Assembly: GCF_019977755.1 (NCBI RefSeq)
Contig: NZ_AP025144.1
Coordinates: forward strand, 2,418,001 to 2,482,000
DNA from: Vibrio penaeicida
GTDB taxonomy: Bacteria; Pseudomonadota; Gammaproteobacteria; Enterobacterales; Vibrionaceae
Reading direction: 5' to 3'
Length of the DNA stretch: 64,000 bases
Shown here one piece after another: positions 15,947 to 59,665 of the stretch. Position 1 is the stretch's first letter. Each line of letters begins with the position of its first letter. Made by a program: the position numbers and the translations under genes. The notes beneath the pieces are model-generated. The model was not told where the DNA came from. It saw only the letters and a program-made list of their open reading frames with translations, and did not search any database.

Positions 15947-16227
15947 TATACCCAAGTAACCTCAAAATGCATAGTTCAGCGAGAGTTAACTGGCTTTCAG
16001 GCAAGGCACCGATATGAAGATCTAGCCATTCTAAATCAAGAATCGGTAACGCTGTATGAAAGCCAGTTAAACTCGCCCGTGGGAGCCCATATTCTGCCTC
16101 ACTTCCTCGTCAAAGAACTTGGAAAGGACTCGTCATTCCACTGCGTTCCTGATTTTGAAGTAGAAAGGCTTGAATTGAAACAGAATATGAGGCTCTGAAT
16201 CCAGCATCTTGAGGTCACTTGGGTATA
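15947..16227. repeat. Dispersed palindromic repeat, copy A (281 bp)
   Basis: Ends in near-perfect terminal inverted repeats (TATACCCAAGTAACCTCAA with one mismatch on the other side) and contains further nested inverted repeats, the longest around TTAACTGGCTTTCA/TGAAAGCCAGTTAA. A second long copy lies at 31282-31547 and a mini copy at 47286-47368. Differences between the long copies in the stems are mostly paired, while about 30 bases around GAACTTGGAAAGGACTCGTC are identical. It encodes no convincing protein. It could be a non-autonomous mobile element that also folds as RNA. It lies between a terminator and trxB. Confidence 0.85.
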
Positions 16228-31226: not shown

Positions 31227-31681
31227 ATGAAGTTAAAAAACGCAGTCTACATCAATTTACGCAAGAAGTGGAAAGCGTATGTATACTCAAACCACCTCAA
31301 GATACTAGGTTCAGCGAGAATTGCTTGGTTTTCAGGCAAGGTACCAATTTGCAGATCTAGTGGCTCTAAATCAAGAATTGGTTACGCAGCATGAAAACCA
31401 AGCAAACTCGCCCTTGGGATCTCATCTTCTGTCCCATTTCATCGTCAAAGAACTTGGAAAGGACTCGTCATTCCACTTCGTTCTTTTCCTTGAACTGACA
31501 CAGAAGATAGAGCTCTGAATCCTGCACCTTGAGGTGGTTTGAGTATATATCTAGAAACACTTCCATTTTAACTGCAAAAATTCGCGAGCAAGACGTAACC
31601 AAACACATTGAATTGCGTGACGAAGAGGGAATTTCCGTCAATATGGTTAGAAAACCTCCACAAAAATGGAAATTCTTTTAA
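31227..31681 (+). pseudogene. Possible small gene split by the palindromic repeat
   Basis: An ATG at 31227 opens a basic peptide (MKLKNAVYINLRKKWKAY) that runs into the repeat at 31282. Straight after the repeat, from 31548, a frame encodes ILTAKIREQDVTKHIELR, then EEGISVNMVRKPPQKWKFF and a stop at 31679-31681. Joining 31281 to 31548 keeps one frame and would give about 62 residues. The 3' piece looks coding by codon use. There is no good ribosome site, and I do not recognise the peptide, so this is a hypothesis. Confidence 0.35.
31282..31547. repeat. Dispersed palindromic repeat, copy B (266 bp)
   Basis: Ends are a perfect 20-bp inverted repeat (TATACTCAAACCACCTCAAG). Inside are nested stems, including TTGCTTGGTTTTCA/TGAAAACCAAGCAA and ACCAATT/AATTGGT, in the same places as copy A at 15947-16227. 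Stem differences between copies are mostly compensated on the opposite arm, and the GAACTTGGAAAGGACTCGTC core is identical. No protein is encoded. It sits between the DUF945 gene and an outer-membrane protein gene, apparently inside a former small gene. Confidence 0.87.
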
Positions 31682-59180: not shown

Positions 59181-59329
59181 AAAATATACTCCTCTACAAC
59201 TTATTTAACAAGGCGATAACATCACAAATCCATCACCTCACCGGTAACCGCTTTTAGAAACTGGAAAAATTTTTAAAATAATTTTGAACTAAACGAATTT
59301 TGGTCAGTCCTAATTTATGTAACAAGCAG

Positions 59330-59451
59330 AGCATTTTGAGTTTAGGGCCGTATTAGACTGATTTAATCACTGTAACTTGTTACAAACGCTGCTTTTTTCT
59401 TATTAACTCCTATTTGTATCAGCCCAAACCCTCGTGGTTTGGGCTTTTTTT
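59330..59451 (+). ncRNA. Candidate small RNA between psrA and the lipoprotein gene
   Basis: A strong plus-strand intrinsic terminator (stem AGCCCAAACC/GGTTTGGGCT, 59421-59445, then seven T) has no gene before it: psrA runs the other way and no frame with a ribosome site lies between. A transcript starting within the preceding 100-200 bases would be a short RNA. TGTAACTTGTTACA at about 59371-59384 could form a small hairpin. I see no convincing -35/-10 pair and cannot name a known RNA. Confidence 0.35.
59421..59451 (+). terminator. Orphan intrinsic terminator
   Basis: A perfect 10-bp stem with a 5-base loop and a T-run, on the plus strand in a gap with no upstream plus-strand gene. Confidence 0.9.
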
Positions 59452-59665
59452 ATCATTCAAGCTCGCTATCACCTCACACATTAATTTATTTCACAATTAG
59501 CTCGATTTTTTTATTCCAAATTCAATCCAATAATCACACCAAAGCTAATTATTCAATCACAACATTTTGTTTATTAAGTAGAAATAAATAACATTATTTT
59601 TTGTAATGATTTCTTGCGACAGTCTTCTATATTTTATTTTGAGGCTTACATTAGGGAGACATTAC

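Follow-up and report, generated by a model that had tools for sequence, protein, structure and literature searches.

The window analysed here, a 64,000-nucleotide stretch of the Vibrio penaeicida genome (GCF_019977755.1, NZ_AP025144.1, positions 2,418,001 to 2,482,000 of the forward strand), contains two copies of a dispersed palindrome whose stems differ in sequence while keeping their pairing, which raises the question of whether the conserved shape is one of RNA or of DNA and what maintains it. A first-pass annotation had placed the copies at 15947-16227 and 31282-31547, with nested inverted repeats in common, and had counted nine positions at which both arms change together. Both copies were located at these positions, and all nine paired changes were seen on side-by-side alignment: the terminal repeats hold three and the inner stem four, with one each in ACCGAT versus ACCAAT and in ATATTCTG versus ATCTTCTG. 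The identical loop-side core that it described is also present, as GAACTTGGAAAGGACTCGTCATTCC at 16115-16139 (plus strand) in copy 1 and at 31450-31474 in copy 2, with an expectation of zero for such an identity in 100 shuffles. Two features lie beyond this pairwise view: copy 1 carries about 15 extra bases in its third arm, and the two copies are members of a set of several dozen in the genome.

Copy 1 (281 bp, 15947-16227, plus strand) is located between a 592-aa open reading frame (ORF) and trxB, upstream of this thioredoxin reductase gene. Its left terminal inverted repeat (15947-15979, plus) forms the basal stem with the right one (16195-16227, plus), and we read the outermost TA of the left repeat as a target duplication; duplication of TA was observed at two other copies. 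The second arm is a long hairpin, GCGAG...TTAACTGGC / GCCAGTTAA...CTCGC (15979-16076, plus), found in both RNA and DNA folds and by covariation (helices 3-6). It is separated from the third arm by CCCGTGGG (16076-16083, plus), in the place of helix 7, where a small CCC...GGG hairpin is predicted (by eye) in many other subfamilies but is absent from the best fold of copy 1 and from the subfamily of the window copies. The third arm, a hairpin CATATTCTG / CAGAATATG with the common core near its tip (16084-16194, plus), is likewise found by folding and covariation (helices 8-12). The extra 15 nt lie at approximately 16149-16168 (plus) and are missing from the counterpart site in V. penaeicida 6E01, which is also occupied, by a 266-bp form. 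Copy 2 (266 bp, 31282-31547, plus) lies between two divergent ORFs, its neighbours being a DUF945 gene and a small ORF weakly resembling outer membrane proteins. It consists of a left terminal repeat (31282-31314, plus), a second arm (31314-31411, plus), a third arm (31419-31514, plus) containing the core, and a right terminal repeat (31515-31547, plus), both arms being found in the folds. The terminal inverted repeats of the window copies are 33 and 36 nt long and 82-83% complementary. Copies 1 and 2 fold strongly both as RNA (z of -8.1 and -11.9, respectively) and as DNA (z of -9.6 and -10.0), and in no case did any of 200 shuffles fold as well.

The absence of covariation among many copies had been named beforehand as a possible refutation of a conserved fold. 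Instead, in 29 representatives chosen to be at most 84% alike, two-sided changes occur at 68 of the 96 pairs, and 90.9% of cells hold a standard pair. Doubly changed cells numbered 519, compared with 149.9 +/- 10.2 over 500 shuffles and 92-158 for slid structures, and none of the shuffled or slid controls came close to this level; the structure was derived from the same sequences, which favours the result somewhat but hardly to the extent seen. By eye, a common plan recurs in the consensus or single sequences of the subfamilies, comprising a basal stem from the paired ends, a long second arm and a third arm. The exception is L052, a rearranged 329-bp copy, and insertions disturb a few others.

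The first-pass annotation had attributed the pattern to selection on a folded RNA or cruciform. In RNA, G.U is tolerated on the functional strand, whereas the mirror change, A.C, breaks the pair. The control consisted of RNase P RNAs encoded by genomes in the same order, 28 in number after two of 30 loci truncated at contig ends had been dropped. With pairs taken from folding both strands, the element gave 2434 Watson-Crick, 87 G.T, 99 A.C and 152 other cells, compared with 1531, 44, 6 and 32 for RNase P under the same treatment. Folding the plus strand alone gave 100 G.T and 104 A.C for the element and 444 and 19 for RNase P. The minus fold gave 93 and 173 for the element, a hint of a mild tilt to the minus strand, and 86 and 238 for RNase P, the latter indicating that a single-strand fold draws in its own wobbles. 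Within six subfamilies, comprising 187 of the 216 copies collected, there were 131 G.T and 118 A.C. The plus strand was the better folded as RNA in 55 of 216 copies, and subfamily folds contained 121 G.U pairs on the plus and 150 on the minus strand; strand preference is thus weak at most, unlike in an RNA gene. Any signal may be diluted by copies, perhaps many, that are dead and drifting, a concern answered only in part by the low wobble in subfamily consensuses. Because G.T and A.C mismatches are about equally frequent, DNA folding, as cruciform or hairpin, is favoured over RNA folding, so that only the cruciform half of the original claim finds support. Pairing would then be kept at the DNA level, either through selection acting on a hairpin or cruciform or through copying from arm to arm.

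Comparison with close V. penaeicida genomes, in which common loci are 88-98% alike, revealed differences in which sites are occupied. Neither of the V. penaeicida strains 6E01 and TUMSAT-NU1 has copy 2; the 6E01 sequence runs uninterrupted through the empty site with a single TA, whereas the filled site has TA at both sides. A second clean TA empty site was found for locus L011 compared with TUMSAT-NU1 (L178). Among six filled/unfilled comparisons, these two were clean, two had altered junction letters, one retained 15 bp of one end and one was a larger replacement. Clean loss could alternatively account for the absence of copy 2 from V. penaeicida. The element is mobile and, as the two clean cases show, inserts at a TA that becomes duplicated. 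Ten copies are shared with the sister strains (nine with 6E01, one with TUMSAT-NU1), of which nine have the same orientation and one is inverted in place (L139:7945-8227 versus L173:530-812), with collinear flanks and three differences in 283 bases (98.9% identity). In four of these ten, the two strains' versions differ by about 15-16 bases, as a single piece or as two. Divergence across the shared copies was 1.81%, compared with 4.15% in the adjacent 100 bp on each side, and was lower in the element in 10 of 10, in copy sets that were both picked by likeness to one query and so under-represent decayed copies. For most of the remaining 6E01 copies, the loci compared contained no counterpart, which does not imply absence from the genome.

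The element is located between genes. Same-strand open runs of at least 60 codons on both sides flanked 2 of 55 copies in the same genome (one of the 56 being omitted for short flanks), compared with 44 of 83 control positions 650-850 bp away; for runs of at least 80 codons, the corresponding counts were 0 of 55 and 37 of 83. None of the 56 copies was spanned by an ORF of at least 90 aa, a weak test because any ORF would be interrupted by stops internal to the element. On a simple ORF call, the genes neighbouring these 56 copies were codirectional in 22 cases, divergent in 17, convergent in 16 and undetermined in one. Judged by eye and from the core matches alone, there seemed to be no clear replication-strand bias.

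To describe the family, we searched with the core, the ends and whole copies. The 22-base core, with up to three mismatches, occurs at 56 places in the same genome (31 forward, 25 reverse), and the 24-base end has 192 matches (91 and 101), the reversed controls giving 0 in both cases. BLAST of copy 1 against this genome, with 40 of 148 candidates scored, yielded at least 40 long matches that span 236 or more of the 281 query positions and, among the matches listed, 33 additional short matches to ends. A match was present in 12 of 41 genomes searched nearby (the same genome included), several to an end only. A pattern of two facing ends detected at least 120 stretches in the genome collection, in records titled Vibrio penaeicida, V. 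sinus, V. hangzhouensis, V. litoralis, V. hannami, V. mexicanus, V. variabilis and Vibrio sp. 99-8-1, and in others titled Photobacterium, Enterovibrio, Pseudoalteromonas, Shewanella, Psychromonas, Alkalimonas and Endozoicomonas. The family extends beyond Vibrio to several other marine genera. Its distribution across genomes is patchy: the exact end pattern matched 6 of 394 genomes sampled from the order (the same genome included), a lower bound because it missed one carrier, G036. In G036 we also observed a second end type, TATACCCAATCAACTTGAAG, on elements that are again 266 bp long (for example, C2:32230-32495 and C11:100722-100987). Three plasmid queries returned six records each, among which were several replicons of 0.8-2.1 Mb; phages had no match to copy 1, and viral contigs none to the exact end pattern.

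From all loci collected, we assembled 216 distinct copies in which both ends could be recognised at a spacing of 240-340 bp. Their lengths fall into classes, with 178 copies at 262-268 bp, 29 at 281-284 bp, three at 296-297 bp and six elsewhere. As the pattern used on the genome collection was itself limited to 253-283 bp, we also counted copies from sources with no length-limited search, which gave 71, 15, 3 and 3 of 92 in the same classes. The 216 copies form 22 subfamilies at an 82% link, and the lowest whole-copy identity to copy 1 among the matches listed was 52%. Mean column conservation was 0.91 over the outer 24+24 columns (the ends) and 0.68 in the interior, where conservation in unpaired columns did not exceed that in paired columns (10 of 54 and 27 of 152, respectively, at 90% or above; mean 0.68 each). 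The idea that conserved loop letters serve as recognition marks is therefore only partially supported.

The family also shows minor variation in form. Mini-elements of approximately 49-65 bp consist of the two ends alone (G000:C1:1496071-1496126, G000:C2:110045-110097, L066:1501-1561 and G036:C69:166632-166688). Extra segments, mostly of 13-17 nt, occur at about eight different places in the element, depending on subfamily (for example, in L006, L113, L168, L230, L247 and L264); by eye, they have no evident sequence likeness to one another, and several could fold into a small hairpin. Four of the ten copies shared with V. penaeicida are distinguished by a segment of this kind. About 29-31 extra nt are present in a few copies. 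At L022:2446-2482 and on the right side of L106:1188-1452, an extra terminal-repeat piece directly adjoins a complete copy, as if one copy had been inserted at, or had slipped next to, another.

No reading frame stood out as coding in the copies, the longest stop-free runs averaging 33-44 codons per frame and reaching 84 in single copies, and no element with these ends long enough for a gene was present in the sequence examined. Unbroken end-to-end spans of 300-6000 bp in the collected loci were limited to two, of 328 and 329 bp; seven longer spans either exceeded 6 kb or contained another end. The complete list of 59 places in G030 included no neighbouring facing ends 335 bp to several kb apart; a parent may exist in the own genome and G021, where the places listed are a subset, and in G001, G013 and G014. 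Two transposase families were considered as parents and rejected. For IS630, the DDE_3 domain was above cut-off in two of eight carriers, gave only sub-threshold matches in G001 and G021, and had no match in four (G030, G036, G041 and G042). For Y1/RAYT, the presence of gene and element disagree, as Y1_Tnp had no match in three of nine carriers (G021, G036 and G042, at least two of which are drafts). Two IS630-type copies in the own genome (C1:227394-227810 and C1:535029-535445) are 99.3% alike over 1045 bp.

Our tentative explanation, to which we give a little under even odds (about 0.47), is a non-autonomous, MITE-like, TA-inserting element of approximately 266 bp that is moved in trans by an enzyme needing folded DNA. 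The mobile nature of the element is shown by its strongly conserved 24-bp ends, TA duplication in two clean cases, presence or absence in sister genomes and intergenic sites, and a part for folding is suggested by a multi-armed shape kept across genera through Watson-Crick changes on both sides with no RNA-type wobble. The enzyme, supplied in trans, would recognise the DNA either as a cruciform after extrusion or as a single strand that replication exposes; pairing of the ends would form the basal stem, and the two arms would provide the recognised shape. If only well-folding copies move, lineages that spawn copies would come to compensate changes in their stems. We infer this step from fold to mobility, as neither an enzyme nor a transposition intermediate was found.

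Three other accounts have to be weighed against this explanation. The element might be a structured non-coding RNA, or an mRNA element regulating neighbouring genes, that was spread by insertion, as its position between genes, the strong RNA folding of both window copies, a UUCG-like small hairpin in several subfamilies and the fact that most copies fold better as RNA from the minus strand would allow; a similar RNA role has been proposed for NEMIS and ERIC in the accessible text of PMC2229807. We consider this improbable, given that the wobble signature evident in RNase P is missing, that no gene orientation is favoured and that, at gathering score, no Rfam model matched the element, either in the window or in 16 related loci (the best sub-threshold matches having E of 0.6 and above). 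Hardly more probable is an ordinary MITE, that is, a decayed TA-duplicating insertion sequence of the IS630 type whose palindromic inside was inherited and has no role. Terminal repeats, TA duplication and the short derivatives made of the two ends fit such an origin, and RUP, a TA-type MITE thought to be mobilised by IS630-Spn1, offers a precedent in the same source (PMC2229807). However, DDE_3 was unmatched or sub-threshold in the six carriers named above, no end-like inverted repeats were seen around the two IS630 copies of the own genome, G030 had no longer facing-end span, and an inert inside would hardly hold its length and pairing at about half the letters in common.

The remaining account is copying between arms, in which a change in one arm is transferred to the other in a single event and the fold is a by-product. 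A large palindrome permits a template switch between its arms (quasi-palindrome correction), or end recombination that inverts the element. Across 153 nearest-neighbour pairs there were 876 single-arm changes and 85 compensated ones, compared with about 10 expected from independent change, although 19 of the 85 came from two distant pairs. L074 and L063 differ at five bases, four of which form two compensated pairs, with no single-arm change. The copy inverted in place, the mismatch spectrum that is even between strands, as for unselected change, and the lack of better conservation in unpaired columns also agree with copying. Single changes occurred at 3.9% per stem base, compared with about 4.8% outside stems, so that individual copies look weakly constrained for pairing, a point against the folded-DNA explanation. 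Yet repeated copying should give perfect palindromes, whereas internal loops and bulges hold the same places in subfamilies with little common sequence (by eye), and at column 12 of the ends 8 of 29 representatives have an A.C mismatch, whereas 15 of 29 are paired there. Further arguments against copying are the length of 262-268 bp in most copies across genera and the 14 single changes to one double change in the ten sister-shared copies. We regard arm-to-arm copying as possible but rather unlikely, and selection in lineages that are still moving, followed by decay of their copies, as the more likely source of the pairing. The covariation claimed earlier is thus upheld against shuffled and slid controls; selection is likely but short of proven, because arm-to-arm copying could produce such paired changes too.

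A bolder version of the folded-DNA explanation, which we hold to be doubtful, is that the element is a free-standing form of mobile DNA with no autonomous relative, whose whole body (about 266 nt, at times with about 16 or 31 more) is a substrate recognised by shape and inserted at TA. The enzyme would perhaps be host-encoded, and the element, spread over several marine genera and capable of inversion in place, would be a DNA counterpart of a structured RNA.

Several known systems resemble the element in part. Integron attC sites, which act as substrates in the form of folded single-stranded DNA, likewise keep their structure as their sequence varies; copies of the element differ in being scattered singly between genes and in duplicating TA. 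REPINs, which are associated with RAYT transposases, are described in the accessible text of PMC3116915 as short repeats between genes whose ends are strongly conserved and flank a hairpin spacer, in which length and hairpin capacity outweigh letters, compensatory changes are common and folding of single-stranded DNA has been proposed. The element shares the hairpin-forming interior, compensatory changes and set length, but is approximately 266 bp long with several arms, has other end sequences, duplicates TA and occurs also in the three carriers noted above that have no match to the RAYT (Y1) family. REPINs are the nearest known system in manner, and TA-type MITEs the nearest by insertion. 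Of the general MITE traits, the element has terminal inverted repeats, of 24-33 bp, and target duplication. As far as the available descriptions go, it resembles TA-type MITEs in being (nearly) non-coding, mostly intergenic and foldable, with terminal inverted repeats, TA ends and target duplication, but is longer, multi-armed, present in several genera and devoid of an RNA signature. Correia/NEMIS, ERIC/RU-1 and RUP, in the accessible part of PMC2229807, are approximately 100-200 bp, mostly have one long stem and have folds discussed as RNA. The V. cholerae stem-loop families ERIC and Vic-1, with model lengths of 103 and 184 bp in the corresponding part of PMC2267715, are likewise intergenic, foldable Vibrio repeats and are set apart from the element, by these descriptions, through its length of about 266 bp. 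ERIC is the sole repeat named for Vibrionaceae in the accessible text of PMC10969869, and that of PMC4383904 held nothing relevant to the element.

The suggestion that these repeats may already be described in part was not borne out: we found no description of the element among the papers listed from the open-licence literature, where those listed for pieces of the end sequence included none on bacterial repeats by title, and none in Rfam. We regard the element as MITE-like, with a conserved DNA fold as its body. Compensatory changes in stems are commonly taken as proof of a functional RNA. A large and clean covariation with no RNA wobble, in a mobile element, makes the ratio of G.T to A.C a simple test of DNA versus RNA folds when genomes are scanned. 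If the fold is needed for movement, each genome would hold dozens of natural variants from which a DNA shape code could be worked out, and the family would give the search for the missing enzyme a target. Separately, the window contains VrrA, a known Vibrio regulatory RNA, at 59319-59452 (65.3 bits against a gathering score of 50).
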